From positions 1 through 51,055 of the forward strand of contig JAMOZS010000014.1 in assembly GCA_023667765.1 (NCBI GenBank): DNA of 51,055 nucleotides, in the 5' to 3' direction. Position numbers and translations under genes: made by a program. Under the pieces are notes generated by a model. The model searched no databases. It had not been told where the DNA came from and saw only the letters and a list, made by a program, of their open reading frames with translations. Shown one piece after another: positions 16,732 through 32,012 of this stretch. The stretch is from Roseburia sp. Lineage in GTDB: Bacteria > Bacillota > Clostridia > Lachnospirales > Lachnospiraceae. Position 1 is the stretch's first letter, and every line of letters starts with the position of its first letter.

Positions 16732-17331
16732 TCACAATAGCAGTTTCCACTTTATGTAGAAATTATGGCTTCTTATCATGTTGCCGTAGCTGATGATAAA
16801 ATCCCCTATCAGCAGGAACATACCGACCAGCGCTATCGCTTTTACAAGCCCCGGATTCATGCCGCTGACCCAGTTCATTATCGGATGAAACACATGCCCC
16901 ATAAACATACTGATAATAAAGGAAAAACCTATGCTGGTGGGTACCGACGTATAGATGGTGATATGCAGGGGAAGCTCGGAATAATTCCAATACTGAATAT
17001 GACAGAGCTTCTCCGTCACTATCCCCAGCAGAATTTCACCCACACTCACAAAAAACATGGCACAGATAAAGTACAGAATCCATCTTATCCATTTAGAAGC
17101 CTTCACAGGGAATTTCCCCATAAGTACCATTTCTGAGGGCGTACCAAACAAAAAATACATAAACACAACAATCAGGCCATAGCCCAATAAAAAGGGAAGA
17201 TTCATATTACGGTTATTGATATACCCCTTCGTGATTGCAAGCCATATATTTTCCAGTACAAAGCCCAGAAATGAAACTATCATCATCAGAATACTCAGCG
17301 CATAAATATTATACTTCCTTTTTACTGCCAT
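16732..17331 (-). CDS. Membrane protein, putative ABC permease-like (CmpB/PF06541-like)
   Basis: Protein of 199 residues with about six hydrophobic segments. The block VGEILLGIVTEKLCHIQYWNYSELPLHI resembles the YWxYSxLPxNI signature of the family annotated as putative ABC transporter permease (PF06541), whose function is unknown. The ATG has GGAGG ten bases upstream. It lies 51 bases downstream of the cardiolipin synthase gene on the same strand and converges with the lipoprotein gene at 16723 (8-base gap). The family assignment is from motif resemblance and is not certain. Confidence 0.65.
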   Translation of the reverse strand: MAVKRKYNIYALSILMMIVSFLGFVLENIWLAITKGYINNRNMNLPFLLGYGLIVVFMYFLFGTPSEMVLMGKFPVKASKWIRWILYFICAMFFVSVGEILLGIVTEKLCHIQYWNYSELPLHITIYTSVPTSIGFSFIISMFMGHVFHPIMNWVSGMNPGLVKAIALVGMFLLIGDFIISYGNMIRSHNFYIKWKLLL

Positions 17332-17382
17332 TTTATTCTTTCCTCCGATTCCTTTATGACCGGGCGCGCTTTTGCCCCTATC

Positions 17383-18921
17383 CTATAACAACGGTGCAAT
17401 CAGCCGCAGGATACACTGGGATATTCGAAGCGGCTTACTTCTATCCCTTCCATAATGCTCCGTGACCTCCGACGATACCGTCAGAAGATTCTCAAAATCC
17501 TCCGCAATCCTTTGTATGGCCTTATATCCATACAGAAAAACGCCATTCTCAAAATGATGATACAGGCTCCGATAATCAAAATTAATTGTTCCTACTATCG
17601 CTGTCCTGTCATCACACAGCACCTGCTTCTGGTGTATAAAACCCGGCGTATACTCATAAATTCTCACGCCCCGCTGTACCAGGGGCGCATAGTAAGACCT
17701 GGTCAGCTTATATACCATTTTCTTATCCGGGATTCCCGGCGTTATGATCCTGACGTCTACCCCACGCTGGGCCGCCAGATAAAGCTCCCTTATCATTTCA
17801 TCACTCAGCACCAGATACGGCGTTGCCAAATACAATTTATGTTTCGCTTCCTTTATGATATTTAAATAGACATTCTCACCCACATATTCATTATCCAGAG
17901 GACTGTCCCCATAGGGAAGCACATATCCCTTCTCCTGAGCCTCATAGGGCGAGGCTTTAAAATAGCGGGAAAAATCGGTGTCGCTCTCCTTCTCTATGTT
18001 CCACATCTCAAGAAACATTGCCGTAAGATTCCTCACCCCGTCTCCGGTCAGCTTCACTCCCGTATCCTTCCAATGCCCGTAGGGATGCGTGATATTAAAA
18101 TACTCATCCGCCAGATTATAGCCCCCGGTAAATCCCACCTTACCGTCAATGATTGTCAGCTTTCTGTGGTCTCTGTTATTCATAAAAATATTCAGAACCG
18201 GAACCACCTCATTGAATACCTTACATTGAATACCTGCGCTTTTCATCTTCTCTATAAACTTCTTATTGATAAAGACCACGCTTCCTATATCGTCATATAG
18301 AAGCCTTACTTCAACCCCTTTTGCGGCGCGCTCCGCCAATACCTCCCGGATTCTGGCAAACGCGCTTCTGTCCTGAACGGCAAAGTATTCCATAAAAATA
18401 AAATGCTCCGCCTTGCTCAGCTCCTCCAGCTGCGCCTCCAATCCCTCCTCCGCTATGGGATAAAACACCACGTCCGTATTCTGACACAGGGGATATTTCC
18501 CATAATTCTGGATATATCTGCATTGATTCGCAATACCGAAATCCTCCTGCTCCAGACGGCTCAGTATCGCCCCGTCTGGCTCCATCCATTCAGAAAGCTT
18601 TTGACTCATATGTACGGATTGTTTTCGCATCCTCTGACTGGCATAATTATATCCGATTAAAAAATACAGACAAATTCCCAGTATCGGAACGGTCAGTATC
18701 AAAATAATCCACAGCATTTTCACAGCCGTATTTCCATATCTGGCATAAATTCTCAATACCAGCAGCAGAGCCACCAGCTGAAAGGCTATATGACAAATAG
18801 TGGAATACTCGTTAAAGCGCAAAAATATCAACAGCACCCAGGAAATTTGCAGCAGCAATGCCATCACTACCACCACAAGTCTTTTGATACTGTTTCCCAC
18901 CTGCATTCCTTCCGTGCTCAT
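17383..18921 (-). CDS. cls: Cardiolipin synthase, phospholipase D type
   Basis: Membrane enzyme of 512 residues that joins two phosphatidylglycerol molecules into cardiolipin. N-terminal membrane segments (about 12-34, 40-58 and 68-88) are followed by two HKD motifs: HRKLTIIDGKVGFTGGYN and, near the C-terminus, HQKQVLCDDRTAIVGTINFD, each with the HxK(x)4D pattern. The ATG at 18921 is preferred because GGAGGG lies 8 bases upstream and the length then fits the family (about 480-510); an upstream in-frame start at 19008 would add 29 residues. It is probably transcribed with the downstream membrane protein. Confidence 0.92.
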   Translation of the reverse strand: MSTEGMQVGNSIKRLVVVVMALLLQISWVLLIFLRFNEYSTICHIAFQLVALLLVLRIYARYGNTAVKMLWIILILTVPILGICLYFLIGYNYASQRMRKQSVHMSQKLSEWMEPDGAILSRLEQEDFGIANQCRYIQNYGKYPLCQNTDVVFYPIAEEGLEAQLEELSKAEHFIFMEYFAVQDRSAFARIREVLAERAAKGVEVRLLYDDIGSVVFINKKFIEKMKSAGIQCKVFNEVVPVLNIFMNNRDHRKLTIIDGKVGFTGGYNLADEYFNITHPYGHWKDTGVKLTGDGVRNLTAMFLEMWNIEKESDTDFSRYFKASPYEAQEKGYVLPYGDSPLDNEYVGENVYLNIIKEAKHKLYLATPYLVLSDEMIRELYLAAQRGVDVRIITPGIPDKKMVYKLTRSYYAPLVQRGVRIYEYTPGFIHQKQVLCDDRTAIVGTINFDYRSLYHHFENGVFLYGYKAIQRIAEDFENLLTVSSEVTEHYGRDRSKPLRISQCILRLIAPLL

Positions 18922-19029
18922 AGCTATCCCTCCGAAGCTTACCTTTTGTAGTTCCTCTTCCTGCCTGGGGCAGAAGCTCATTTGAACAGTCTGCTTATAG
19001 TTTACCACATAATACCGTTTTGTACCAGT

Positions 19030-19076
19030 AAAAAACGGGAGGTTTCCGAACTGCCCGAAAACATCCCGCCTTTTTT
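19030..19076 (-). terminator. Terminator after the secreted protein gene (bidirectional)
   Basis: On the minus strand CGGGATGTTTTC and GGAAACCTCCCG form an imperfect stem around GGGCAGTTC, followed by TTTTTT. The plus-strand reading also ends in TTTTTT. It separates the 19075 gene from the cls gene. Confidence 0.75.
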
Positions 19077-19839
19077 AAAATTCCACTAACTTCATTTTCT
19101 TTTTCGTAATGTCTTTCTCTCCCCACTGGTGCAGGAAGCTCGCCTTAGTCGCTTTGGAAAAGTTATCCGTTATAAGCGTCTTGCTTTCGTTTTTCATCGT
19201 AATATCATCCACATACACCTTATAGGTACCGTCTATAGAAATACTTCCGAAGCTAATGCCCGGATGTATATAATACTTGGTCTTACTATCCAGCTTCTTT
19301 CCCGTCTCACCTATCTTTGTCTGTGCGGGAACATTCTTAATATCCAGAATATAATAATCCTTATAAGCGCCCTTTCCTTTCTTAATGGAAAAGTATTTGG
19401 AGGCCTTTACATTCTTTTCTTTCAGGGTGTCCCACACATAAAGAACAGGCTTGTTACCCTCCACTGTCACAGACGGCACATATCTCCAGCTTACTCCCCC
19501 CACATATTCATATTTTTTATTATGCAAATCATAAAAACCGCTTATATCCAGGTGTGACCCTTCCTGAGAAAGCATCTTCCTGGGGATATAAATCGTAGCC
19601 GACGCTGTCAGCCCCTTGGCAATCTGTCTCTTCTTAATAGCGCCTGCACCATAATACAGAACGTAATCATTCTTCTTACGCGTTTTATCATTGTCTGCGC
19701 CTGACTTAAAGGTTATCGATAATCTGGCGGCTTTATTCTTCTTGGCGGCTTGTGCCGGAATCGCCGTTCCGATAAGAACCAAAAAGACAAGCGCCAACGC
19801 CAAAACTCTTTTGAATGATATGACCCTTCTCACTTTCAT
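19075..19839 (-). CDS. Secreted protein of unknown function, beta-rich
   Basis: Protein of 254 residues with a Sec signal peptide (basic MKVRRVISFKR, hydrophobic core to about 25, AQA cleavage near 29). The mature part is lysine-rich and beta-rich, with SITFKSGADND, ATIYIPRKML, LDISGFYDL and a late YKVYVDDITMKNES segment. This layout is reminiscent of carbohydrate-binding modules, in which VYVDDI often occurs in the last strands, but I cannot assign a family. The ATG at 19839 follows AAGGAG by 7 bases. It is flanked by a terminator downstream and lies between the lipoprotein and cls genes. Confidence 0.7.
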   Translation of the reverse strand: MKVRRVISFKRVLALALVFLVLIGTAIPAQAAKKNKAARLSITFKSGADNDKTRKKNDYVLYYGAGAIKKRQIAKGLTASATIYIPRKMLSQEGSHLDISGFYDLHNKKYEYVGGVSWRYVPSVTVEGNKPVLYVWDTLKEKNVKASKYFSIKKGKGAYKDYYILDIKNVPAQTKIGETGKKLDSKTKYYIHPGISFGSISIDGTYKVYVDDITMKNESKTLITDNFSKATKASFLHQWGEKDITKKKMKLVEF

Positions 19840-19990
19840 CCATATTCTCCTTTTCTGCGTCGTCCTCCGCCTTGGGATAATCTCTGTGCAGGACAACGCA
19901 TAAACACAAAGCACCCTTTCAGAACTGTTTCCCTCATTTTACCAGTTTTCCTCCCTATCGTCAATCATTTCCCTTTGTCCCTGTTTTAGT

Positions 19991-22330
19991 TTACTCGTTT
20001 CTGCCCTGGCGTTCCGCCAGATAAAGCCCCACACGCTTCGTCAGCCGTTCAATCAGAATGTCCTCTGTGATGGCTCCGGCGGCGTATTCCTGCAGCTCTT
20101 CTACCAAAATAGAATTGAGCTCTCTGGGGAAACCCTTTTTAGGCCGGGCCGTCTCTAACAGTTCATACAAAAGGGCGGCGTCAAGCTCCCTGTCATATCT
20201 GTCCCCCAGCATTATCTGGGGAAATCCGTAAACAGTCGGGTATGACCATTCATTTACCTGATTTATCTGCTCCTCCAGCACATCCCGTCGCACACTCAAC
20301 CAGAAATTCGAACTGTTGGCGCTGCTCTCCAGCTGACCTTCCCGGGAAAGCAATAGCCGTATAAAGGCGCCCGCCACTCTCTTTTCCTCATCTGATGCAG
20401 TAACCCGAATGGCCAGAGGCGAAAGACTGTCCATGTAATGCGCCGCTCCGTCTTTGGAGGGATATCCGATATAATGAATATCCTCCCCGTAAATATAGCG
20501 GTACAAATCAATCAGCTCCGGTCTTGTAATACTGACGGTATTACAGAATACCTTTCCCTCCAGCAGAGACTCTCCCGGCTCTATCCACGCCTCTTCGTCA
20601 CAGTAAGCCATTCCCAGCCGCAGCACCCTGCGGAATTCGTCGCTGTCAAAATTGACTGTCCCGTTTTCTGCATCCAACAGATAATTGTCCTCCAGCCCAT
20701 GTATCAGAAAGTTCACCACAAAAGAAGCCAGTCCGTTTTGGCCGTTAAACACAGCCTGAAGGGAATCACGGTTCTCAATACCATCCAAAAAGGCTTTATA
20801 GTCCCAGTCCTCCGGCTCCTCTTGAGCGATTACCACTGTATCCAGAGCAAAGCTGTTTACCACTCCGTACAGCGTCCCGTCGATTTCTCCCATCTCCATA
20901 GCCTTCGGCAGCAGAACATCTTCCCATTCCTCCCCCTGAAATAATCCCTCCAGAGGGGTCCACAGCTTTTTATGCTCCTCAAAGCCCGTAAGCTGCGTGT
21001 CAATCAGTACCGGCCCCGTCCCCGATATCAGCTCTGTCAGAAGCGCCGTCTCCTCATAATCCGTTTTCATCTCAATATGATAGGCCGGATATCTTTTATT
21101 AAATTCCGCCACGGAAAAGCTGTATATCTCCTTCATATAGGGCTGCACCGCAAAGACAATCCGCTTAATCTCTTCCCTTTCCTCCGTGGGCTTTAAACAC
21201 AGCAGATTCCCGCCCTTACTGTCGGAATAAATCAGGCTGATACATCCGTTCTCCTGTATCTGCAGCTCCTCCATCTGAGAAAACTGTACTCCGTGCCTGA
21301 GCCAGGTATAAATGTCTCCTGTTATGTTTCCTGACAAATCGGCAAAATGAAGCCCCTTGCTGTCCGCATACAGCAAGGTTTTCTCATCCCAAAGCGTGTA
21401 ATAAACCTGGGATGCTTTCTCCTCCCATTCCACCAGGGAGACAAGCTTCCCCGTCTCCCTGTCCATGCATTCCAGACGACTGCCTGTCAGTTTGCCCTCG
21501 TTATTTACAAGGGAGGACCCTATGGCAACTCTGCCGTCATATAGAGCTGTCAGTCTGGTAGAAATACCTGAATAATCATATTCCGCCAGAAGCGTTCCGT
21601 TCGAATCCACCACGTAATAGCCGCTTTGATTCTCCAGGGGAGGCTTCTCCTCTTCTCCACCCTCATACAAGTGGGAGGTAATAAAATGAATGTTTCCGGC
21701 CTTGTCTACCATAAATTCACCGGGAATTTCCTGTTCCGACAGAAAATCGATAAAAACTCTGCGCACTATCTGAAGCTCCTCATCGATTTCAAAGAAATAA
21801 TACCCTCTCCCGCCCTCTGCATCCCCGGGCGTCTCCCAATCCAGCATCATAAAATGGTCGCTTCCGATGATGCTGCCTATGCCCCAGGCCTGATTATGCG
21901 TATCCTCCCGAAAGGCCAGTCTGACAGAGTTTTCTTCTCTCTGATTCGTAACGGTCTTTAGTTCATCCCAGCAATCTTCTACCGGATTCAAAAGATGCTT
22001 TCGAAAAAGCGCTCCCCGGGTGTTTCCCAGGGCAAAACCCATGCTGCCGCCGGCAATTTCGCCCTCACTTTGCTCCGAACGCAGAGGCACGTGTATCGTA
22101 GCCGTATAGTCATCCAGGGTATTATCCCGCCATTCCTCCTCAAGGGAAAGCTCTGTGGCGAATACATCCTCCGTCGAAACCGTTTCTTCTACGGGAGCTG
22201 TGCGGCTTTCCTCAGAAGCCTCCTGCCCCTTCGGGAGTTCTTCCCTTCCGGCCACATCCTTCCCTCCACATCCGCTAAATGACATCATCAGAATCATGCA
22301 AATCATCATAGACATCCCGGTTATTCTCAT
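19991..22330 (-). CDS. Lipoprotein with propeller-like N-half and solute-binding C-half (II)
   Basis: Exported lipoprotein of 779 residues; the lipobox FSGC gives a lipidated Cys at 21. After an acidic linker (about 25-55), residues about 90-390 show repeated beta strands (GYYVVDSNGTLLAEYDYS, LYDGRVAIGSSLVNNEGK, TLLYADSKGLHFADLSGN). From about 405 a solute-binding-protein-like domain begins (SFSVAEFNKRYPAYHIEMKTDY), with GEIDGTLYGVVNSFALDT and a C-terminal helical bundle. It has the same plan as the proteins at 14516 and 25744. The ATG at 22330 has AGGAGG upstream and its own promoter (22392-22420), although the gene follows the adaptor gene by only 119 bases. Confidence 0.75.
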   Translation of the reverse strand: MRITGMSMMICMILMMSFSGCGGKDVAGREELPKGQEASEESRTAPVEETVSTEDVFATELSLEEEWRDNTLDDYTATIHVPLRSEQSEGEIAGGSMGFALGNTRGALFRKHLLNPVEDCWDELKTVTNQREENSVRLAFREDTHNQAWGIGSIIGSDHFMMLDWETPGDAEGGRGYYFFEIDEELQIVRRVFIDFLSEQEIPGEFMVDKAGNIHFITSHLYEGGEEEKPPLENQSGYYVVDSNGTLLAEYDYSGISTRLTALYDGRVAIGSSLVNNEGKLTGSRLECMDRETGKLVSLVEWEEKASQVYYTLWDEKTLLYADSKGLHFADLSGNITGDIYTWLRHGVQFSQMEELQIQENGCISLIYSDSKGGNLLCLKPTEEREEIKRIVFAVQPYMKEIYSFSVAEFNKRYPAYHIEMKTDYEETALLTELISGTGPVLIDTQLTGFEEHKKLWTPLEGLFQGEEWEDVLLPKAMEMGEIDGTLYGVVNSFALDTVVIAQEEPEDWDYKAFLDGIENRDSLQAVFNGQNGLASFVVNFLIHGLEDNYLLDAENGTVNFDSDEFRRVLRLGMAYCDEEAWIEPGESLLEGKVFCNTVSITRPELIDLYRYIYGEDIHYIGYPSKDGAAHYMDSLSPLAIRVTASDEEKRVAGAFIRLLLSREGQLESSANSSNFWLSVRRDVLEEQINQVNEWSYPTVYGFPQIMLGDRYDRELDAALLYELLETARPKKGFPRELNSILVEELQEYAAGAITEDILIERLTKRVGLYLAERQGRNE

Positions 22331-22391
22331 AGGTTCCTCTTCCTCCTGCATGGGGCTTTTGTTGGTCATTTCCTGCCTCAAATATGGACTT

Positions 22392-22420
22392 ATTATACCA
22401 TAACCCCTGGAATATGGAAA
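22392..22420 (-). promoter_or_regulatory. Promoter for lipoprotein II
   Basis: TTTCCA (22415-22420), 17 bases, TATAAT (22392-22397) on the minus strand, with a TGG extension before the -10. It lies between the adaptor and lipoprotein II genes, so lipoprotein II can be expressed separately. Confidence 0.6.
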
Positions 22421-22449
22421 TCGGAAATTTACTCTTGCCCCGGAAGGAA

Positions 22450-23925
22450 TCAATCCCTATCTTCCGTAAGCCGAACCGTATCTTCCGGAGCAAGCTCCCT
22501 GTCGGCGCTGATTACGAACTGTTCCTCCTCGCTCAGGCTTCCCTCCTTCAATGCGGCATGGGAAGTATTTTGGTCTGTGACCTCCACCTGCCTTTTTACG
22601 ACCTGAAGCTCCGTCCCCAGTATCGTATCCTTTTCCCGCAGCACATAAAGGAACTGTTTATCGTCCACTGTGTGCAGGGCAGACAGCGGAACACAACAGG
22701 AATAAGGCCCCTCCTGTTTTACAAACCTTAAAGTGCCCATCTGCCCGGGAGACATCTTATCCCCATTCCCTTCCACCGTCACCAGATAATTATCTTCGTC
22801 CACTTTGTGAATGGCGGCCAGCGGCAGGTTATTCAGGGTTTTTCTGCCATTCTGGAACTGCAGGGTTACCATATCCTCCCTATTTAACAGAAGCATCTGC
22901 TCCTCGTTTAAGGTTGCCTCAAACACCCATCCCCGGGAAGTATCCGCCAGTACCATTGCCGCCGTATCCGAGGTTCTTCCCCCGGTAGAGATATAGATGG
23001 CCTTCACGCTTCCTTCCACCTGACTGAGAATCTTTCCCTCCTGCTCCAACAGGGTACGGCATTCTTCTACTTCTTTTTGCAGGGTCTCATACGCCTGCTC
23101 CTCTTCCATAACACCGCTTTTCCCCTCCACGGTCTCCCGTTCCCTGTCCTCCAGATTGCGTTTTGCCTGTAAAATCGCCAGGTTCTTGTCATTATCTGCC
23201 ATCTGCAAGGCCGCCGTCGCCTCTTTTACGGATTGTTCCAGCATGTTCCGTTCCTCCGCCCACGCCTCCTGCAAAGATAATTTCAGACTGTTTGCATAGA
23301 TTGCAAATGCTTCCTCCTGCTCCGGGTCATTTAACAATCTCTGATATTCACTGTCCTGACGAAGCTTGCTGTCATAATAGGCTTCCCAGGAGGGATATTG
23401 ATTCCATGCGTTCTGGGCGTCCTCATATTGCTGTCTCGCCCTTGCCACAGATAGTTCCCCGGTTCTTTCGACATTCTCCAAATCCTCTCTTGCCCTGGCT
23501 GCTGCCACCTGCCTTTCCTGCGCGGAAAGCTTCTGCGCCGCCCGATTCTCTTTCAGTCTCTGTTCGCACAGCGCCGTCTGCTTTTTAAGCTCCTCCATTT
23601 TCTCTTCCAGCTGCTCCGTGTTCAGACGAAACAGAAGCGTATCCTTCTGAATCGGTTCCCCTTCCCGTACACAGATTTCCTCAATCAGGACGCCCTCCGA
23701 TACCCATACCGCCTCTTCCCGGGCTGCGGTAATGCATCCTCCTGCCTCCACCACATGGTCGATGGTTTTTTTCTCCATTCTGCCCACCTCCACCCGGGGC
23801 ATCAAATAAGCATAAATTCCCCTGGAAATTATGGTACACAATAGCATCCATACCAGAAAAACGCCAAACCCCTTTACTGCCTTGCTTCTATATTTTTGAA
23901 TCTGCTCCCTGATTGTTGTCTCCAT
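22450..23925 (-). CDS. HlyD/MFP-type membrane adaptor protein
   Basis: Protein of 491 residues with one N-terminal membrane segment (about 20-43) and no lipobox. Then comes the first half of a lipoyl/barrel-sandwich domain (AGGCITAAREEAVWVSEG, about 61-78; CVREGEPIQKDTLLFRLN), a long charged coiled coil (about 100-300) and the second half (VEGSVKAIYISTGGRTSD), followed by beta-barrel parts with LSPGQM-like MSPGQMGTLRF. This is the layout of periplasmic adaptor proteins, which in Gram-positives usually work with MacB-type exporters. Here it follows two importer-type permeases with a 21-base gap, and no exporter is nearby. How it functions is not known. Confidence 0.85.
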   Translation of the reverse strand: METTIREQIQKYRSKAVKGFGVFLVWMLLCTIISRGIYAYLMPRVEVGRMEKKTIDHVVEAGGCITAAREEAVWVSEGVLIEEICVREGEPIQKDTLLFRLNTEQLEEKMEELKKQTALCEQRLKENRAAQKLSAQERQVAAARAREDLENVERTGELSVARARQQYEDAQNAWNQYPSWEAYYDSKLRQDSEYQRLLNDPEQEEAFAIYANSLKLSLQEAWAEERNMLEQSVKEATAALQMADNDKNLAILQAKRNLEDRERETVEGKSGVMEEEQAYETLQKEVEECRTLLEQEGKILSQVEGSVKAIYISTGGRTSDTAAMVLADTSRGWVFEATLNEEQMLLLNREDMVTLQFQNGRKTLNNLPLAAIHKVDEDNYLVTVEGNGDKMSPGQMGTLRFVKQEGPYSCCVPLSALHTVDDKQFLYVLREKDTILGTELQVVKRQVEVTDQNTSHAALKEGSLSEEEQFVISADRELAPEDTVRLTEDRD

Positions 23926-23946
23926 CCTTTGACCTAACCTTTTCTT

Positions 23947-24888
23947 CTACGCTTTCATGCCTGATAAAGCTATGCCCTGCTCCAGATAATCCTGTCCGAT
24001 TATAAACACAAACACCGCAGGAATCAGGGTAATCACCGACGCCGCAAACGCCCTGCCCGCCATTGCAGCATCTATCTGGGGCAAATACAGGGACAGGGGC
24101 CACAATGCTTTTGTCCGAAGAAAAGCCAGCGGCTGCTCCATCATATTCCAATAGTCTAAAAAACCCAGCACCAGTGCGGACATCATCTGCCCCGACCCCA
24201 GCGGAACCCCTATTTTCCAAAAAGAAGTCCACTCACCCGCTCCATCCATTTTCGCCGCCTCCAACAATTCCCGGGGAATTCCCGCGAATCCCCTGTAAAT
24301 CAGGAATACGGGAAAGGTGGAGAAAATAGCAGGAATAATAACCGCTCCCTGCGTATTTATCAAATGAAGCTTCTGGAGCACCAGATACGAGGGCAGCATT
24401 GTCACCTGAAAGGGCAGAAGCATCAACAAAATATACAGCGTAAACAACACACTCCTTCCCCGAAAACGAAATGTCGCAAACGCCCAGGCCGCAGGTACCG
24501 CTGTCACAAGCTGTCCCACCAGAATCAGACTGACTATTTTCATAGAGTTCCAGAAAACGGTAAAAAATTCCGGGCTATAAAACAAAAGGCGCAGATAATG
24601 TCTCCCGGTGGGATACAGGGAAAGAAAATTCCATGTCACATCCTCCGAAGAGCTGCCATAGAGTGGCGCCATAATTGCCGCCAGTTCGTTGCCGCTCTTG
24701 ATGGAACCACATAAGACCATGATAACGGGAAGACAAACAGGTACTGCAAAAAGACTCAGACAGCTCATATTCCGGATACTCCTGACTGCGCTTCGCAGAT
24801 GCTTCCCCAGCGCATTGATTCTTCTGCGACTCTTACTTCTGTGATTAGTACTCTCCTCGGCTTTCTTTCCGCCCCTGGTATCTTTCAT
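23947..24888 (-). CDS. Carbohydrate-type ABC transporter permease (MalG-like)
   Basis: Inner-membrane permease of about 313 residues with six hydrophobic segments. The cytoplasmic EAA loop LLEAAKMDGAGEWTSFWKIGVPL, which docks the ATPase, is intact. Family members pair with a MalF-like partner, here the gene just upstream. The N-terminus is unusually long and basic (KSRRRINALGKHLRSAVRS). The ATG at 24888, with AGGAAAG upstream, is preferred over a GTG at 24948 that has no RBS and overlaps the upstream gene. No ATPase gene is in the operon. In Firmicutes a shared MsmK/MsmX-type ATPase often serves such permeases. Confidence 0.85.
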   Translation of the reverse strand: MKDTRGGKKAEESTNHRSKSRRRINALGKHLRSAVRSIRNMSCLSLFAVPVCLPVIMVLCGSIKSGNELAAIMAPLYGSSSEDVTWNFLSLYPTGRHYLRLLFYSPEFFTVFWNSMKIVSLILVGQLVTAVPAAWAFATFRFRGRSVLFTLYILLMLLPFQVTMLPSYLVLQKLHLINTQGAVIIPAIFSTFPVFLIYRGFAGIPRELLEAAKMDGAGEWTSFWKIGVPLGSGQMMSALVLGFLDYWNMMEQPLAFLRTKALWPLSLYLPQIDAAMAGRAFAASVITLIPAVFVFIIGQDYLEQGIALSGMKA

Positions 24889-24929
24889 ATCTCTTTCCTG
24901 CCTTTCATAGAGTTTCTCCCTGACCTGCC

Positions 24930-25796
24930 TTAACTTGGTCTGTCCCACAGACGCTGCAAAATCACTACGCCTACCAAAAAGACAAACGTCATGCAGACGG
25001 CTGCCGCCGCCATTTTATCCATCTCCAGATTGGTAAACCAATTATTAAATAAATGCTGCAGCAGATACATTTTCTGCTGGGGATATGCGCCTGCCACCAG
25101 ATATGCCTCCCGAAATACCTTAAAGGAATTTAAGAAGGACAATACCGTGATGGTATACATCATGGGCTTTAATTCCGGTAAAACCACCCGGAAAAAGCAC
25201 TGTCTTTCGGATGCGCCGTCCACTCTGGCGGCCTCCTTCTGCTCTATGGGTACACTGTGCAGCCCCGCCAGCCACAAAACGATGGTATAGCCCATGTTTT
25301 TCCAGAGATAACTGAAAATCAACACCATAAAAGACGCATCGCCTCCCAGCCAGTCCACGGCGCTCAGCCCACATTGCTCCAGCATTCCGTTCAACAGGCC
25401 ATTCTCATGAAAAAAAAGCTTCCAGACCAATACCACGGTAGCCGTGGGTACTGCCATGGGGAACAGATAAACAGACTTCCACCTCTGGGCATGCCTGCAC
25501 CGGTCAATCATCAGCGACAGACACAGCGAAAGAATCAAAAGCAGCGGCAGCCCCACCGCCACAAACCTTACGGTATTTTTCAGAGCAAGCAGAAACGCCT
25601 GATTACGGAAAACAGTCAGATAATTATCTATACCGGTAAATTGTTTTGTAACCGCCGTCCGAAAAGACCTCCTCCCCACATCCAGGAAGGGCAGGAGCAC
25701 AAACAGCCCTACCCCTGCCAGACTGGGCAGTAAAAACAAAACTCTACTCCTGCATACGCAGCGATATTTTCTGTACGATTTCTTCCACACATTCAT
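24930..25796 (-). CDS. Carbohydrate-type ABC transporter permease (MalF-like)
   Basis: Permease of about 288 residues with six hydrophobic segments, opening with a basic region then LFLLPSLAGVGLFVLLPFLDV, typical of sugar importers. The EAA loop EAARVDGASERQCFFRVVLPELKP is present. It overlaps the end of the solute-binding lipoprotein gene by 53 bases if the ATG at 25796 is used. An alternative TTG start just after the lipoprotein stop (AGGAG, 7 bases, TTG) would remove the basic N-terminus and seems less likely. It pairs with the permease at 23947. Confidence 0.85.
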   Translation of the reverse strand: MNVWKKSYRKYRCVCRSRVLFLLPSLAGVGLFVLLPFLDVGRRSFRTAVTKQFTGIDNYLTVFRNQAFLLALKNTVRFVAVGLPLLLILSLCLSLMIDRCRHAQRWKSVYLFPMAVPTATVVLVWKLFFHENGLLNGMLEQCGLSAVDWLGGDASFMVLIFSYLWKNMGYTIVLWLAGLHSVPIEQKEAARVDGASERQCFFRVVLPELKPMMYTITVLSFLNSFKVFREAYLVAGAYPQQKMYLLQHLFNNWFTNLEMDKMAAAAVCMTFVFLVGVVILQRLWDRPS

Positions 25797-28083
25797 CAAT
25801 TTCTTTCTCTCCCGTCAATGCCTTCACGCCGATAGCGATGATATCATCCTCCAGCAGACTGTCGGTTCCCACAGGGGTGTGAGACGCCTGAATGATTTCA
25901 CGCAGCTCTTCCACCTCTCCCTCATTTGGCCATACAATTTCCAGACCCAAGTACGCTCCGTCCGGTCCCGAGAAACCAAGGGAATACGTCTCATTGGGAT
26001 TGGCCTGTGTGGTAAATATTTCAAAGGCGTCCTCATTGACAGGGAAACCGTCTCCCAAATCCACCTTCTGTACATCCTCACGAAACAAGGTCCGCAAAAA
26101 GGCTTTTGCCGTCTCCGGATCCTTTGTATTGGCGCTCAGTCCTATGATTCCCGTGGGGCAAAACGTACCAGCGCTCTGCCCGCTCCACGCCTTAATCCGG
26201 TAAGCCTCCGACGTATCCTCCCATTGCCTGCCGACGGAAACCACCGCCTTGTAATCGCTCATACTGCGCAGATAACCCGCGCTCAGAATCTGTTCCCCCA
26301 TTAATTGATTGATTACCTGGTCATAAACGCCAAGCCGCCTTAGCTTCATCTCCTCCTCCGTATAAAAGCTCTGTAACCTGCGTCGGGACTCCTCGTGCCC
26401 TGCTTTGGCCTCTTCCTTCAGATTCGCCTGCTCAGATGTATAAATCCGCTTTGCATCCGTCAAAAATTCCCCCAGCTTTTCCTTATCCACACTACCGTTT
26501 TCCGTTATCCAGGAATCCGCACATAAACGGTATATTTTCTCTAATAATTCCTCTCCCGTATACGTTCCCAGTATGGTCTCTTTGACATTGCCCTCTGCCG
26601 CAATACGCTCTACGGCATCCGCCAGGGTACCTAAATCTACAACGGAAGAAACCTTTCCCTCTGCACCGCTTAAGCAGGGGATCTCATATCGAAACGGCAG
26701 AGCATAGATTCCTTTATCATCACCATAGCCTTCCAGAACACCTTCAAAAAAGGCATTTGTGGATTTCAGGCTTTCCGTCTCCCCCTTCAGGTCTGCAAGG
26801 ATGCCCTTCTCCTTATAAGAATCCAAGGGCAGTCCGTTTAGCAGAAGTAAGTCCGGTCCCTCATCCGCCAGCAGTCTGGTGTTCAGATTGTGGATGGCGT
26901 CATTTTCCGTCATGCCGTCCTCACCGGAAATTCCTATCTCAAACCGCACAAAAACATCGGGATTTTCTTTGCGGAAAACACTGACGGCCCGTCGAACCGT
27001 CTCGTTATCATATAAACCGTAAATGCTTATCTGCTCCTCCGGTACTGCTAAGGCCTCAGGGTCATAGATATAGGAATACAGTTCTCCGTCATCATAGAGA
27101 ATCAAAAATGCCTTCTCATCCATCTGCAGCATACTGATGGGTGTCTTCGTAGGGTCGCCCAGATTATTCAAAGCACCGTCCGCCAACTGCTCCATCACAC
27201 TACCGCCGGCGACATGACAATAGATACCGCCCACCGACGCCAGAAATACGGTATCTTCTCCCTGCTCTCCTTCCCCACTACATAGTACAATTCCTGTCTT
27301 TTGGCTGTTTTGTTCTTTAATAAAATCATTTAAAACGGCATCCTCCGTATGGTATTCTCCGGTATCCAAAGAATAAAAATATACTTGCTGTCCGTCCTGC
27401 AGCATCAGCCGCTTACTGTCCGCCCACATGGCCAGATCCCATGCCCCCGCCAGTTCAAACAGTTTTTTTGCGCTCCGGTTTTGTATATCAATCTCATATA
27501 CCACATCACTGTTGGTTGCGGCAAACAACCTCCCCCGGGTACTAAACGCCATCTTTGTCACAGAGGCATGATATTCCTCCAGTCCCAGCTCAAACTCCGT
27601 CTCGCTTCCGTCCGGCGCCACATAAAGAAATTTCTCCGGATAGAGCTTCTCCTCACTGGATTGGTACCAATCTATATATTCTATGAAGATTCCGCCATCC
27701 GGCGCAATCGCCGTCCGGTACTCTCCCTCAACGGCGGAAAGCACTCTCTGCAAGGCCGCTATCTCATCTTCCTGCCAGGTCTGCCCCTCATCCGACGAGG
27801 TATACTTGATTCCTGCCAGCGTATCAACTACTGCCAGCGTACCGTCAGACAGCTTTGCCATACACCCGCCTCTTTGAAAATCTGTCGGTATGTCCAACTG
27901 GGTTTCCATATATCTGCCCTTCGCCGTCGCACCTGCGCTGCCGTCTCCTCCCATAGCGCCCACAGACGAACCGCCGTCTCCTTCTGTTCCTGTTTCTTTT
28001 GGGCTGCCGCCGCAGCCCAGGGCAGTAAATGCCAGTGCCGCGGTCAAAATCATGGCGATTCCTCTTCGCTGCCATTTCTTCAT
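25744..28083 (-). CDS. Lipoprotein with propeller-like N-half and solute-binding C-half (III)
   Basis: Exported lipoprotein of 779 residues; the lipobox ALGC gives a lipidated Cys at 24, then a Gly/Ser/Ala linker. Residues about 50-345 are beta-repeat, propeller-like, with a BNR/Asp-box-like IKYTSSDEGQTWQEDE and repeats such as FSTRGRLFAATNSDVVYEIDI and DSKRLMLQDGQQVYFYSLDTG. From about 355 (ISIYGLYDNETVRRAVSVF) an SBP-type domain follows: LADEGPDLLLLNGLPLD, DKGIYALPFRYEIP, and GIIGLSANTKDPETAKAFLRTLF, the usual C-terminal SBP helix. It heads the operon with the permeases and adaptor, so it is the likely substrate receptor. ATG at 28083 with AAGGAG upstream. Confidence 0.8.
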   Translation of the reverse strand: MKKWQRRGIAMILTAALAFTALGCGGSPKETGTEGDGGSSVGAMGGDGSAGATAKGRYMETQLDIPTDFQRGGCMAKLSDGTLAVVDTLAGIKYTSSDEGQTWQEDEIAALQRVLSAVEGEYRTAIAPDGGIFIEYIDWYQSSEEKLYPEKFLYVAPDGSETEFELGLEEYHASVTKMAFSTRGRLFAATNSDVVYEIDIQNRSAKKLFELAGAWDLAMWADSKRLMLQDGQQVYFYSLDTGEYHTEDAVLNDFIKEQNSQKTGIVLCSGEGEQGEDTVFLASVGGIYCHVAGGSVMEQLADGALNNLGDPTKTPISMLQMDEKAFLILYDDGELYSYIYDPEALAVPEEQISIYGLYDNETVRRAVSVFRKENPDVFVRFEIGISGEDGMTENDAIHNLNTRLLADEGPDLLLLNGLPLDSYKEKGILADLKGETESLKSTNAFFEGVLEGYGDDKGIYALPFRYEIPCLSGAEGKVSSVVDLGTLADAVERIAAEGNVKETILGTYTGEELLEKIYRLCADSWITENGSVDKEKLGEFLTDAKRIYTSEQANLKEEAKAGHEESRRRLQSFYTEEEMKLRRLGVYDQVINQLMGEQILSAGYLRSMSDYKAVVSVGRQWEDTSEAYRIKAWSGQSAGTFCPTGIIGLSANTKDPETAKAFLRTLFREDVQKVDLGDGFPVNEDAFEIFTTQANPNETYSLGFSGPDGAYLGLEIVWPNEGEVEELREIIQASHTPVGTDSLLEDDIIAIGVKALTGEKEIDECVEEIVQKISLRMQE

Positions 28084-28126
28084 ATGCTCCACGCTCCTTT
28101 TTACGATGTGATTTGTCGACATACGA

Positions 28127-28140
28127 AATATAACATGGTA
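28127..28140 (-). promoter_or_regulatory. Extended -10 promoter for the SBP-permease-adaptor operon
   Basis: TGTTATATT on the minus strand (TATATT at 28127-28132) lies about 45 bases before the ATG at 28083. There is no good -35. Confidence 0.35.
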
Positions 28141-28153
28141 TTCTCTAATTTTT

Positions 28154-28216
28154 ATCTAAGGAAGGGCTGATGTATCATCCTTCCTTAGAGCCTCCGGCGG
28201 TGTACACGGATTTGCA
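28154..28216. repeat. Dispersed hairpin repeat, copy 3
   Basis: TCTAAGGAAG, GGCTGATGTATCATC and CTTCCTTAGAG, then a tail (CCTCCGGCGGTGTACACGGATTTGC) that also matches copy 1 at 6676-6703. Confidence 0.6.
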
Positions 28217-28256
28217 GGGGAATTAAGAAACCAAGTCATTTAAGGATTGCCTTACT

Positions 28257-28390
28257 TGTTATAATGTGTTCCCTTACGTTATATCATTTTATATGCTTCC
28301 GAAATACCTCTTAACTGCCCCGGATAAGGATTAGCAGTCAGCCGAAAGGCTCAACCGGTTCCGGAGAGCAGCGCCGCCGGAAGAAGAAAC
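28257..28390 (+). other. Possible promoter and structured RNA segment
   Basis: TGTTATAAT (28257-28265) is an extended -10 on the plus strand. Downstream are an AGCC-GAAA-GGCT tetraloop hairpin and a GGTTCCGG/CCGG pairing region (28330-28390). It ends where the antitoxin promoter begins. I recognise no RNA family and see no open frame with an RBS. Confidence 0.25.
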
Positions 28391-28393
28391 CAC

Positions 28394-28422
28394 TTGAAAC
28401 CCACCGCGGATTGTGGTATATT
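28394..28422 (+). promoter_or_regulatory. Antitoxin RNA promoter
   Basis: TTGAAA (28394-28399), exactly 17 bases, TATATT (28417-28422). It has no gene-sized reading frame after it and points at the 3' end of the toxin gene. Confidence 0.7.
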
Positions 28423-28425
28423 GAA

Positions 28426-28460
28426 CATAAAGAAGGACACCTGCTGGTAACAGGTGCCCC
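28426..28460 (-). terminator. Terminator of the toxin mRNA
   Basis: On the minus strand GGCACCTG, TTACCAG, CAGGTGTC, then CTTCTTT. A second hairpin (GGCTATT/AATAGCC) overlaps the toxin stop codon. Confidence 0.55.
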
Positions 28461-28545
28461 GTAGGAGCTACCGATAGACGGTTAGCCCGGAATATGTTAA
28501 GCTAGAATAGCCTCTCAGTTTTCCAGACCAGGGCGGCTATTTCTG
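28429..28545 (+). ncRNA. Antisense RNA antitoxin (type I toxin-antitoxin)
   Basis: Inferred transcript of about 115 bases from the promoter at 28394-28422. It contains three hairpins: CACCTG/CAGGTG, GCTACCG/CGGTTAGC and AATAGCC/GGCTATT (28506-28541), the last acting as a probable terminator. It is complementary to the 3' untranslated region and last codons of the toxin mRNA, the arrangement known from TxpA/RatA-like systems. Ends are estimated from promoter and hairpin positions, not measured. Confidence 0.6.
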
Positions 28546-28635
28546 CGTCTCGTTACTATCTTTACCAAAAGAGTATCCGATTCCAAAGCAGGTCAAACCG
28601 AAGCTCAGCACTGCAATCAGTCCCAAAATATCCAT
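28537..28635 (-). CDS. Holin-like hydrophobic toxin peptide of a type I toxin-antitoxin locus
   Basis: Peptide of 32 residues. Residues 3-22 form one membrane helix (ILGLIAVLSFGLTCFGIGYS), followed by a charged tail (GKDSNETQK). This matches the small putative holin-like toxins common in Lachnospiraceae, which insert into the cytoplasmic membrane when not silenced. The ATG at 28635 has GGGAGGG 9 bases upstream. The mRNA has a leader of about 100 bases from the promoter at 28745-28773. An antisense RNA is transcribed toward it. It is too short for routine gene calling, which is why it is easily missed. Confidence 0.8.
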   Translation of the reverse strand: MDILGLIAVLSFGLTCFGIGYSFGKDSNETQK

Positions 28636-28744
28636 ATGGCTCAGCCCTCCCTTCCCAGATTCCCTTGCGGGTTTCTATGTAAACGGAGGGTCACAGTCCC
28701 TCCGGAGAGGGCTAACCGCCTACCATCCTGGTAGTCCCAAAGAA

Positions 28745-28773
28745 ATACTACCACAGTTCGACAGGAATTTCAA
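28745..28773 (-). promoter_or_regulatory. Toxin promoter
   Basis: TTGAAA (28768-28773), exactly 17 bases, TAGTAT (28745-28750) on the minus strand. It leads into a long structured leader with GGACTACCAGGATGGTAG and CCTCTCCGGAGGG hairpins before the toxin RBS. Confidence 0.65.
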
Positions 28774-28928
28774 ACAGATTCTCTTTTCATGGAATAGGTG
28801 GAAAGTGTTTGAAAATCAATCTCACGGAGCAAAAAGAAAGACTGGATTTTCAATTTCGTATTTGATTTTATCTTACTACTTCCCTGTTGCCAAAGTGTTA
28901 TAATAAATTATGATTCCCATTAAATATT

Positions 28929-29492
28929 TTATTCCCTAACAATAACTTCTTCTAGGTTAGGACAATCCGAATACCAATCAATACCTGCTGTCTTAGCATT
29001 TTCATCCATCTGATTTGGAATAGACATTATACTAACCCCTTCTATATTTGAATAAGTGAAAGGATCATAATAAATATCATCCGAAACAACTCTTAGATTA
29101 CTAACATACAAGAAGCAACCTTCCATGATATCACCTATTTCCTCATCTTTTTTTGCATAATTGGTAAGACTAAATACACATTCAAGTCCCCCCGGAATAT
29201 CGGAATAAACATACACTGAGATTTTTCGGCGCTCATCTTCCATGCACTTGCTGATTATTTTTATAAACTTTGAGATTGCCTCTGCATTTTTGTTTTTTAT
29301 TTGATATTCATAACAGGTTCCATATAACTCGGTATCTCCTTTTCCATGATAGTAAAATTCTTCGCCCAGCATTTCCTGCACAGAGCGTGATAATTCATCA
29401 TCTGGATTCAAATTGTAATCTTTATTCCTTCCGCAACTACAAACGAACACCATAGCTAAAATAAGTAGAATTATAAAACAAGTATTCCTCAT
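28929..29492 (-). CDS. Small lipoprotein of unknown function
   Basis: Protein of 187 residues with a lipoprotein signal (hydrophobic core 5-18, lipobox VCSC, Cys at 20). The body is mixed alpha/beta (YHGKGDTELYGTCYEYQIKNK, KFIKIISKCMEDERRKISVYVYSDI). The end, GIDWYSDCPNLEEVIVRE, looks like a single leucine-rich-repeat turn. No family is recognised. Its base composition is more A+T-rich than the genes at 14-28 kb. It stands alone beside the toxin-antitoxin locus, and no neighbour suggests a role. Confidence 0.6.
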   Translation of the reverse strand: MRNTCFIILLILAMVFVCSCGRNKDYNLNPDDELSRSVQEMLGEEFYYHGKGDTELYGTCYEYQIKNKNAEAISKFIKIISKCMEDERRKISVYVYSDIPGGLECVFSLTNYAKKDEEIGDIMEGCFLYVSNLRVVSDDIYYDPFTYSNIEGVSIMSIPNQMDENAKTAGIDWYSDCPNLEEVIVRE

Positions 29493-29816
29493 TATTTTAT
29501 CTCCAGAATATTTTCCGATATCTCCCTATCAACATGGATATATCGTTACATGGACAATTAGTCTCTCCCCATCCACAAGAACATATTTTAACATAATATT
29601 CTTATCTGGTAAATGTATTATTAGGCTCTGTAATCACTCTTTCCCTTATCAATCATTTGTAAGGGCAGAAACAAGGGAAACGATAAAACAGTCAGTAGGC
29701 AAAGTGGAATTTGCCGCTTTGCAGGAAAATAAAAAATCATAAAATTTAAAGATAAATTAGAGCTATTGGTGTTACAATAGATTATAAAAATCAGAATCGG
29801 AAAAAGGAGGTTTTTC
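29493..29816. other. A+T-rich intergenic region between divergent genes
   Basis: No gene is seen. A TGTTACAAT extended -10 (TACAAT at 29773-29778) faces the response regulator, whose RBS AAAGGAGG lies just before its ATG. The -35 is weak. Confidence 0.4.
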
Positions 29817-30497
29817 ATGCGTATATTATTGATAGAAGACGACCCTGAACTATGTTTCTCCCTTGCTTTTCAATTACAGAAAAACGGATTTCTGGTGGAT
29901 ACCTGCGAGGACGGAGAGGACGCCTCCTATTATACCGACCAGCCCATTTACGACTTGATTCTGTTGGACCGTATGCTGCCCCATGTGGACGGAATAACCA
30001 TTCTGCGGAAGCTGCGTTCCTCCGGCAATATGGTTCCGGTTATTCTGTTGACGGCACTGGGAGAAATAAATGATAAAGTAGACGGACTGGACGCCGGGGC
30101 CGATGATTATCTGGTAAAGCCCTTCGCCTTCGAGGAGCTGCTTGCCCGCATCCGCTGTATCCGCAGACGACCGCGAACCTGGGAAACCGGAAATATCCGT
30201 TCCTTTGAAGATATCACCTTAAAGGCGGAGGAAAATATCCTCACCGGGCCTTCCGGCTCCTGTACACTTTCCAAAAAAGAGGGAGCGCTGCTGGAATGCC
30301 TTCTGACAAACTCCTCACAGACGCTTCCCCGCATGACGCTTCTGACAAAGGTCTGGGGACCGGACGCCGAAGTGGAGGAAGGCAATCTGGATAATTATAT
30401 GTACTTTATACGGCGGCGTCTCAAAAGCGTAGGCTCCGCTGTCACTATCAAGACCATTCGGGGCGTGGGTTACAGTCTCGCCGAGAACCGCCGATAA
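29817..30497 (+). CDS. OmpR-family response regulator
   Basis: Two-domain regulator of 226 residues. The receiver domain (1-120) has acidic D8/D9, phosphoacceptor D51 (LLDRMLP), T79 and K101 (LVKPF). The C-terminal winged helix (about 130-224) has the OmpR-type RMTLLTKVWGPDAEVEEGNLDNYMYFIRRRLKS and the closing IKTIRGVGYSL. It is phosphorylated by the kinase 84 bases downstream and should regulate transcription. Strong RBS (AAGGAGG). Target genes are unknown. Confidence 0.93.
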   Translation: MRILLIEDDPELCFSLAFQLQKNGFLVDTCEDGEDASYYTDQPIYDLILLDRMLPHVDGITILRKLRSSGNMVPVILLTALGEINDKVDGLDAGADDYLVKPFAFEELLARIRCIRRRPRTWETGNIRSFEDITLKAEENILTGPSGSCTLSKKEGALLECLLTNSSQTLPRMTLLTKVWGPDAEVEEGNLDNYMYFIRRRLKSVGSAVTIKTIRGVGYSLAENRR

Positions 30498-30581
30498 AAG
30501 GCTGTCAGAGCCTGTCGAACCATTACTGCCTTTATCCCGGTCTACTTATGAAAAGGAAAACGAAAAAGAGGTATCTCATTT

Positions 30582-31883
30582 ATGTATGGAAAAATACACC
30601 GCAGGCTGGCATTTTTATTCGCAGGAATCACATCCCTGATTCTGGTTATCCTATCTGTCAGCTACCAGTTTTTGTCGGAAAGAGAAATGCGAAACAGCAG
30701 TTTTCCCGCCTTTGCCGGAGAAATGAATACGATTCTCTCCAACCTGGAAAACCAGAAAACCATTACCTACGAATGGCTTTCCAAAATCAGCGCAAACGAA
30801 AAATATATCATTGCCCTATATGATAACCAGCTTCCCCTTTCCTACACCACTACTGTACTTACCGATAAGGAGCAGGCTCTGGTTACGGAGCTGTTGCAGG
30901 CAAAAAAGGAGATTATTGACGCCATATCCTCCTATGCCTATTACGGCTCCATCCATAGGGAATTTACCTGGCGTGCCCCGGACCGACAGCTCTATTATGT
31001 CTGCTACAGCAATATCCATCGTTTCTCCTCCACCCTGACCACCGTTATTCTCTTTTCCACCAAGGATTTGGACAATCGGCTGATGCGTCAACGAATTTGG
31101 CTGACAGGACTGAATCTCGCGGGAATCACATTGCTGTTTTTGTTTTCTTATTTTTTTACCGGATATCTTCTGCGCCCCCTTCAGATATCTCAGGAACGGC
31201 AGAGCGCTTTTATTGCGGCAGCCTCTCACGAGCTGCGCACCCCGGTATCTGTCATACTCTCCTCCATCTCCGCCCTGAAATATGCGGACGCCCAGGAGCA
31301 GGAGCCATTTTTTACCATCATTGAATCCGAGGGCGCCAGAATGTCCCATCTGATTCATGAGCTGCTCACCCTGGTGCGCTCCGACAACCATACCTGGTCA
31401 TTTTGCATGGCGGATACCGAATTGGATACCCTGCTTTTGAATGTCTATGAGGCATATAAGCCTCTTGCGGCAAAAGAACAGGTCCGACTGTCTCTGGAAC
31501 TGCCAGAACAGACCTTTCCGCCCTGTCGCTGCGACAAAGAGCGCATCACACAGCTCCTGGAAATCCTGCTCTCCAATGCAATCAGCTACAGCAACGAGAA
31601 GGGCCTTGTGGTTCTGCGCCTGACCTGCAGACACCATACCTTCCGTCTGGAAGTGGCGGATAACGGCATCGGTATCTCCCCTGACGCCAAAGAACATATA
31701 TTTGAACGATTTTATCAGGAGGACCCTTCCCGCTCCCAAAAAGAACATTTTGGTCTGGGGCTCAGTATTGCAAAGGAAATCGTTACCGCCCACCACGGCA
31801 GTATACAGGTATCTGACACCCAGGGCGGCGGCGCCACGTTTACAGTAATCCTTCCCGAAGCACGCTTTTTTCCGACAGAATAA
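30582..31883 (+). CDS. Membrane sensor histidine kinase
   Basis: Kinase of 433 residues. Membrane segments at about 8-30 and 173-193 flank an external sensor of about 140 residues with no recognised fold. There is almost no HAMP linker (RPLQISQERQSAF) before the H-box SHELRTP with His216. The catalytic domain shows the N-box (LLSNAISYSNE), DNGIGISPDAKEHIFERFYQ and GLGLSIAKEIV. It is the cognate partner of the preceding regulator. The missing HAMP is typical of compact Firmicute kinases. The signal is unknown. Confidence 0.92.
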   Translation: MYGKIHRRLAFLFAGITSLILVILSVSYQFLSEREMRNSSFPAFAGEMNTILSNLENQKTITYEWLSKISANEKYIIALYDNQLPLSYTTTVLTDKEQALVTELLQAKKEIIDAISSYAYYGSIHREFTWRAPDRQLYYVCYSNIHRFSSTLTTVILFSTKDLDNRLMRQRIWLTGLNLAGITLLFLFSYFFTGYLLRPLQISQERQSAFIAAASHELRTPVSVILSSISALKYADAQEQEPFFTIIESEGARMSHLIHELLTLVRSDNHTWSFCMADTELDTLLLNVYEAYKPLAAKEQVRLSLELPEQTFPPCRCDKERITQLLEILLSNAISYSNEKGLVVLRLTCRHHTFRLEVADNGIGISPDAKEHIFERFYQEDPSRSQKEHFGLGLSIAKEIVTAHHGSIQVSDTQGGGATFTVILPEARFFPTE

Positions 31884-31906
31884 GGAAAGCGTTCCAAAAT
31901 GAACGG

Positions 31907-31935: not shown

Positions 31936-32012
31936 ATTCCCATTGACTGGTACAGCAGTTTCCAATCGCTCGGCTGTCTATGCAACGCATTGCTTACAGG
32001 GAGGAAATCCAC

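Follow-up and report, generated by a model that had tools for sequence, protein, structure and literature searches.

The window analysed here is a stretch of 51,055 nucleotides of a Roseburia sp. genome (contig JAMOZS010000014.1), and we describe a cassette of transport genes on its minus strand. Between positions 28083 and 22450 the cassette encodes a propeller/solute-binding lipoprotein (SBP1, where SBP stands for solute-binding protein), a MalF-like and a MalG-like permease and a MacA/YknX-like membrane fusion protein (MFP); a second such lipoprotein, SBP2, comes next (Table 1). According to the open reading frame (ORF) calls, the gene junctions from SBP1 to the MFP are overlaps or short gaps. 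An earlier note on this DNA had described a set of five genes without an ATPase, in which both permeases keep the EAA loop, and this was confirmed by ORFs, Pfam, NCBIfam and direct reading. Indeed, neither Pfam nor NCBIfam named an ATPase among the five window genes, and the window has no MacB/YknZ-type permease next to the adaptor.

Table 1. Features of the cassette and its surroundings (window positions), and the two paralogous cassettes of the same genome (positions on their own contigs)
Feature	Position	Strand	Basis
SBP1 lipoprotein: N-terminal beta-propeller and C-terminal CUT1-type solute-binding domain	25744..28083	-	ORF, Pfam, N-terminal profile, lipobox
MalF-like permease, EAA loop, signature FKVFREAYL..YP..LQH.FNN	24930..25799	-	BPD_transp_1, alignment A1, PDB profile matches SugA, MalF
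MalG-like permease, EAA loop, signature WNMMEQP	23947..24948	-	BPD_transp_1
MFP, MacA/YknX-like adaptor	22450..23925	-	RND_mfp below cut-off, profile A4 matches, predicted transmembrane helix 16-34, alignment segments
SBP2, second lipoprotein: CUT1-SBP-like C-terminal part, weakly supported propeller	19991..22330	-	Family profile; homologue in L037
Promoter-like site before SBP2, TTTCCA-17-TATAAT	22392..22420	-	10/12 match; not clearly above chance
OmpR-type response regulator, divergent from the cassette	29817..30497	+	Pfam
Sensor histidine kinase	30582..31883	+	Pfam HisKA and HATPase_c
L094, type B six-gene cassette (two SBPs, MalF, MalG, MFP, MacB-like PCD)	contig 32, 336-10113
L180, third cassette, type C (668-residue lipoprotein, MalF, MalG, 137-residue protein replacing the adaptor)	contig 9, 6474-10541

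Both permeases pass Pfam BPD_transp_1 (65.8 and 47.6 bits, with a cut-off of 26.4), and their EAA motifs, EAARVDGAS and EAAKMDGAG, are legible; these were read directly, as counts with a regular expression were too strict for use (0/5 control MalGs matched). MalG starts at GTG 24948 or at ATG 24888. SBP1, whose ORF covers 25744-28122 with a probable start at ATG 28083, has a directly read lipobox (TALGC) and passes Pfam SBP_bac_1 (28.7, cut-off 26). The family profile of its 313 N-terminal residues matches PQQ-type and designed propellers and, more weakly, a sialidase propeller, and a single Asp-box, SSDEGQTW, is found at residue 109. For SBP2 (ORF 19991-22453, lipoprotein start probably at ATG 22330), the family profile indicates a CUT1-SBP-like C-terminal part (CbpC, E 7e-30), the match to Pfam SBP_bac_8 is below cut-off, and a close homologue lies near the cassette of another genome (L037, 3139-5466, E 2e-293). 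Of the 60 matches listed for its N-terminal profile, a single weak one (E 1e-4) was to a designed propeller, and the SBP2 sequence by itself gave 0 matches against the PDB. The proposal that both lipoproteins join a propeller to an SBP is supported for the propeller of SBP1, but only weakly for that of SBP2. The family profiles of the SBP domains match the CUT1 binding proteins CbpC and YesO. Several propeller-SBP genes stand in tandem within one cassette in L103, L110 and L132.

The MFP consists of one predicted N-terminal transmembrane helix and two lipoyl halves flanking a stretch of ~190 residues, followed by a barrel and a membrane-proximal part; the domain borders were drawn by eye on the alignment and the ~190-residue stretch was taken as a helical hairpin. 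The window MFP matches RND_mfp (TIGR01730; E 1.1e-10, 41 bits) and type_I_hlyD (TIGR01843; E 1.1e-9, 37.8 bits), in both cases far under the cut-offs of 94.9 and 208.65, respectively, and the family profile matches the structures of ZneB, MexJ, MacA and EmrA. By these two models and the structure matches, the HlyD likeness first noticed holds, and a likeness to MacA/YknX is equally strong.

The MFP is linked to the permeases well beyond this strain. The MalF alignment alone was scanned against GTDB species genomes, and the best 80 of the 568 stretches encoding a relative were taken as the locus set. An MFP is present in 76 of these 80 MalF-selected loci; the other four (L100, L145, L159 and L175) reach a contig edge 640-933 bases after MalF, before any MFP, and their MFP status is not judgeable. 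A MalF frame was called in 77 of the 80 loci, and 71 of the 77 carry an MFP label. Where frames overlap, only the longest is retained by the ORF caller, and genes are sometimes hidden behind antisense frames; 12 doubtful loci were therefore re-read in six frames and the counts were corrected accordingly where stated. Re-reading recovered the hidden MFP frame in L108 and L134; no MalF frame was called in L120, L137 and L138, yet an MFP frame follows the matched MalF stretch. Among the 76, the MFP is short or split in L102, L157 and L165, is cut by the contig end in L129 and L155, and lies 3.4 kb from MalF in L110. The taxa concerned include Blautia, Roseburia, Eisenbergiella tayi, Hungatella hathewayi, Clostridium asparagiforme, C. 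symbiosum, C. citroniae, C. celatum, Coprococcus catus and Niameybacter. A chance linkage in one strain, which the earlier note would have taken as accidental, is ruled out by these 76 loci, and the adaptor and the permeases form a conserved neighbourhood.

The genes are also tightly packed, with median gaps in the named loci of 0 bases between MalF and MalG (n=75) and 12 bases between MalG and MFP (n=63). As a control, five other MalFG-type pairs of the own genome (L176, L177, L179, L181 and L182), each with no less than 2.0 kb of flanking sequence on either side, carry neither an MFP label nor one for the MacB-like protein described below; a sixth pair, L178, ends at a contig edge. Fusions of cassette parts were not seen among the loci examined, where the only fusions were response regulator-histidine kinase hybrids. 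Co-occurrence rests solely on the MalF-selected loci and on 40 hand-picked loci selected by the MacB-like protein, while L031-L070, picked mostly by MFP similarity, are unusable for it.

Phylogenetic comparison led to the same picture. For the 89 cassettes with an MFP of at least 380 residues, the MFP and MalFG tree distances correlate with r=0.89, a value inflated by common species history, against a maximum of 0.16 in 999 permutations. Of 29 strong MalFG splits in this comparison, 24 recur in the MFP tree and one is strongly contradicted. Pairs at least 95% identical had been dropped before the MalFG tree was built (116 reduced to 104, including 5 controls). Species history is probably not the whole cause of this agreement, since in both trees the own genome's type A and type B cassettes each group with their own kind. 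Linkage of the MFP with MalFG, the gene content and order of the cassettes, and co-inheritance are shown by these comparisons.

Many cassettes encode in addition an ATPase-less, MacB/YknZ-like membrane protein, here called PCD. It is labelled in 44 of the 80 named loci, mostly directly after the MFP, and the two genes usually overlap (median gap -4 bases, n=43). The PCD family profile matches the outer domain of YknZ (E 2.8e-7) and, weakly, MacB (0.01 and worse). The Pfam MacB_PCD score exceeds the cut-off in L062 and L065 and falls short of it in L046 and L069, and Pfam does not see the domain in L055, L136 and L170, so that PCD membership of the last three rests on our own profile; no ATPase domain was reported in these seven Pfam-scanned members. 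Among eight full-length PCDs, four have four predicted transmembrane helices, as MacB does, and the rest have five, three, two and two.

In the genus of the window, a strong match to the PCD profile (E 1e-34 or better) was found in 117 of 121 genomes, the own genome included. ORF calling gave a PCD in 38 of the 40 hand-picked neighbourhoods, with SBP-MalF-MalG-MFP-PCD-SBP as the commonest order; after six-frame re-reading all 40 have MalF, MalG, MFP and PCD, although L221 has a split MalF, and L215 and L218 have a short one at the edge of the locus. The six-gene form looks near-core in this genus. With the narrower profile A3, up to 5 candidates were scored in each of 398 genomes sampled across the phylum; 2 matches at 1e-12 resulted, of which one was in the window's own genome.

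PCD-bearing cassettes occupy early branches of the clade with full-length MFPs in the MalFG tree (104 pairs), and the PCD is missing in the window's branch, where the MFP is retained. The exceptions, L097 and L098, have, like their dropped near-copy L099, a PCD-labelled frame of 224-251 residues with one predicted transmembrane helix; in other branches, some single PCD losses reflect contig edges or perhaps labels that were missed. Read from the tree, the order of events suggests that the PCD is ancestral and was later lost in the window's branch. Of 17 genomes with a PCD-less cassette, 7 are without a match to the PCD profile at 1e-6, 8 have weak matches (1.2e-7 to 7.8e-14, 6 of which span only a short part of the profile) and 2 have strong ones, while three PCD-bearing control genomes score 3e-91 to 1e-103. 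In most of these 17 genomes the MFP is retained without a clear cassette PCD; in the own genome, the PCD of the second cassette could in principle serve the window cassette. The prospect that the adaptor is paired elsewhere with a MacB-like exporter, which would have spoken for an accidental linkage, is therefore half borne out: a MacB/YknZ-like PCD is encoded in many cassettes, but no ATPase domain was found in it, its gene lies in one operon with MalFG, and the MFP is retained when it is missing.

The own genome contains three cassettes (type A in the window, type B on contig 32 and type C on contig 9) and six further MalFG-type pairs. In the type C cassette L180, the 137-residue protein leaves no space for the lipoyl and hairpin parts. 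Its anchor (residues 2-44) scores 25 bits against the MFP profile and its end only 4 bits, which weakens the idea of a C-terminal likeness to the MFP. Among 195 other genomes, this mini-adaptor gave only 6 weak matches, to frames of 507-572 residues; its residues 47-134 match part of the 507-residue frame in G170 (E 2.8e-5). The closest MalG relatives of L180, in 2 of 116 other genomes at E 1e-50, belong to loci with MalF and MalG and without an MFP label; L199 has a weak label for the lipoprotein, which on visual inspection is fragmented in L200. In the MalFG tree, type C cassettes are sister to all other cassettes, so the MFP was either recruited later or reduced and lost in type C.

The earlier note suggested that the adaptor could serve as a conduit or as a spacer across the thick wall. 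The hairpin stretch differs widely in length between full MFPs, from 119 to 456 residues (190 in the window), while the C-terminal lipoyl half keeps to 27-32; such variation fits an adjustable stalk better than a sealed tip-to-tip duct. The role of spacer is thus plausible on these lengths, but a sealed conduit is disfavoured by the paralogous cassette with its 137-residue stand-in and by the two relatives without an MFP label.

Concerning the energy source, a shared MsmK-like ATPase had been proposed. A MalK-type ATPase is encoded inside the cassette in five loci, after the PCD in L065 and after MalG in L136 and L140, likewise in L139 and L151. The three that were tested (L065, L136 and L140) contain OB_MalK and TOBE_2 according to Pfam, and OB_MalK was found in 171 of 196 genomes. 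A shared ATPase of MsmK/MalK type is likely, although none was detected in the own assembly (see below). A motif search for ATP-binding cassette (ABC) proteins in the same-strand runs of loci with a MalF frame gave, besides the five MalKs, four proteins, located upstream of the cassette in L094 and L067 and more distant in L048 and L106. In L094 the upstream region (10238-14463) encodes a short ABC ATPase (254 aa) and then an FtsX/MacB-like protein of 1155 aa with a MacB_PCD match; upstream of the type B set in L067, a short ABC ATPase (234 aa) is followed by a protein of 1147 aa. No MacB/YknY-type ATPase was found in the window operon, and the ATPases that this search placed within a cassette are the five of MalK type. 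Of 79 clustered loci, 22 are touched by a cluster of ABC ATPases, which seems unsurprising with 75 PF00005 matches in the own genome of 2.8 Mb.

Some variants of these gene arrangements were also observed. In the Hungatella-type operon (L136, L139, L140 and L151) the order is SBP, small protein, MFP, PCD, MalF, MalG and MalK; in L136, a 211-aa lipoprotein-like protein precedes the MFP and a VanZ-like protein (203 aa) follows the operon. In L047, L049, L057 and L115, proteins of ~470-530 residues are encoded downstream of the MFP, and three of them are weakly labelled by an ATPase profile, as if a second ABC system were attached.

In the surroundings of the window cassette, a promoter-like site is present before SBP2, which had been assigned its own promoter, but such sites are not clearly above chance (24 in the region versus 18.2 ± 4.6 in shuffles). 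An Rfam search of positions 17000-32500 gave 0 matches. Between SBP1 and the two-component system, a small lipoprotein-like protein (187 aa, 28929-29492, minus strand) has no Pfam or NCBIfam match, and on the plus strand (14516-16723) an SBP-family protein of 735 aa with SBP_bac_1 over cut-off has no adjacent permeases. Where enough upstream sequence is available, a response regulator and kinase are encoded close to the cassette in 44 of 62 named and 13 of 29 other loci. This proximity suggests that the two-component system probably controls cassette expression in many relatives.

Taken together, these sequence comparisons point to an ATP-driven type I importer (CUT1/MalFG fold) with an extracytoplasmic MFP stalk of variable length, a reading to which we give slightly less than an even chance (about 0.47). 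In such a machine, the propeller-SBP lipoproteins would catch the ligand at the cell surface. The MFP, anchored by its transmembrane helix and with its membrane-proximal part on or beside MalFG, would act as a stalk or cage, whose hairpins would span the sub-wall space and keep either the large lipoproteins or the wall aligned with the permease. Ancestrally, the ATPase-less MacB/YknZ-like PCD would be part of the scaffold, and the window's branch would function without it. A MalK/MsmK-type ATPase, encoded within the cassette of some relatives but at another place in the majority of genomes, would dock to the EAA loops and power uptake. We infer the physical assembly, as a stalk rather than a duct, from these gene and domain features, and the direction of transport from the relatedness of the SBP domains and permeases to CUT1 systems. 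The substrate is perhaps an oligosaccharide or a wall-derived molecule.

Several observations weigh against this importer with a stalk, beyond the inflated tree correlation mentioned above. A type-specific motif in the loop after the EAA loop of MalF, which in itself speaks for the importer with a stalk, is found in 91/96 cassettes, 3/3 type C cassettes and 0/5 controls, but a strict MalG motif occurs in only 67/96 cassettes. The idea that this MalF/MalG loop signature is the docking site of the MFP is weakened, since the signature is retained in type C cassettes, which have a mini-protein or no adaptor. It may then mark where the lipoprotein, rather than the MFP, makes contact, and the adaptor is not indispensable. 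No MalK/MsmK-type ATPase was detected in the own assembly (no OB_MalK match at E 1e-3), despite nine MalFG-type pairs, three of them in cassettes. An assembly gap would be the simplest reading of this absence, as the assembly is 93.7% complete and in 101 contigs. At the type B loci L094 and L067, the ATPase and the large protein just upstream on the same strand may represent a MacB-type link. No sugar-catabolic neighbours were evident by eye in the 14 largest neighbour clusters, which is unusual for a sugar importer. Finally, the MFP systems described in passages of PMC5985334 serve efflux or detoxification/protection.

Those upstream ATPases also bear on whether the operon encodes two machines: a CUT1 importer and a separate MFP(-PCD) device, the latter perhaps driven by a MacB-type ATPase from elsewhere, which would respond to the same ligand or stress without contact between them. 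MFP and PCD resemble MacA and YknZ, which cooperate elsewhere, they precede MalFG in the Hungatella type, and in L094 and L067 a short ABC ATPase and a large permease-like protein are encoded just upstream. However, the MFP remains with MalFG where the PCD is missing, MFP and MalFG are co-inherited, and in the same-strand runs searched for motifs the only ABC ATPases inside cassettes are the five of MalK type, so we hold two uncoupled machines to be unlikely. A routine MacAB pump that merely adjoins a sugar importer is an insufficient explanation, the ATPases inside cassettes being of MalK type, although a short ABC ATPase does lie upstream in L094 and L067. The MalFGK importer and an extracytoplasmic MacAB-type half (MFP and PCD) might be functionally joined in one complex, with MalK strokes relayed via MFP/PCD to move or release ligand from the propeller lipoproteins across the sub-wall space. 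This would be a new class of transport machine, a Gram-positive trans-envelope importer that is near-core in a large gut genus; we consider it doubtful.

The frequent response regulator and kinase, together with the large size of the lipoproteins, could also suit an envelope sensor, in which the complex binds a wall fragment or an antimicrobial and passes a signal to the two-component system, with transport in a secondary role, as for BceAB-BceRS. This seems improbable to us: loci without an SBPA-type lipoprotein are mostly without the regulator-kinase pair (present in 4/9 named and 1/9 other loci), and the EAA loops and MalK genes favour transport. The efflux or protective role of the MFP systems described in PMC5985334 would agree with MFP and PCD having turned the MalFG-type permease into an outward pump or a membrane-extraction device, with the SBPs as receivers. 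Against this stand the relationship of the SBP domain with CUT1 binding proteins CbpC and YesO and that of MalF with SugA and MalF, which are importers. We know of no exporter of the type I fold, and find such a pump very unlikely.

Among known systems, the cassette resembles CUT1 importers (MalFGK2, LpqY-SugABC and those served by MsmK) in the MalF/MalG fold, the EAA loops, the SBP lipoprotein and a MalK/MsmK-type ATPase often encoded elsewhere. Unlike them, its SBPs, sometimes paired, have an N-terminal propeller, its operon adds an MFP and often a MacB-like protein, and its permeases have distinct motifs after the EAA loop. With the Gram-positive MacAB-like pumps YknXYZ (Bacillus) and Spr0693-0695 (S. 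pneumoniae), it shares a MacA-like MFP and, with YknXYZ, a PCD related to the outer domain of YknZ and predicted to have four transmembrane helices, as MacB, in 4/8 cases; however, no YknY/MacB-type ATPase was found inside the cassette, the permeases are MalF and MalG, and the PCD is absent in the window. BceAB-BceRS is similar by the OmpR-type two-component system near the transporter, but the permease fold, SBPs, MFP and ATPase type all differ. Passages of a review on MacB (PMC5985334) report that many Gram-positive adaptors share operons with macB homologues and pose the role of an adaptor in cells without an outer membrane as an open question; parts of PMC5985334 and of a Legionella paper (PMC11559062) describe YknX as a hexamer of the MacA fold. 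Among the titles and abstract openings listed by our searches of open-licence papers, we found no description of importer permeases combined with an MFP, in agreement with the first impression that this combination has no described function.

A conserved MFP with importer permeases, accompanied in some relatives by MalK, would uncouple the MFP from export and provide a testable case. In commensals such as Blautia, Roseburia, Eisenbergiella and Hungatella, these genes are likely named "efflux adaptor" and "sugar permease", names that point to different processes; the cassette as read here would unite them in one function.

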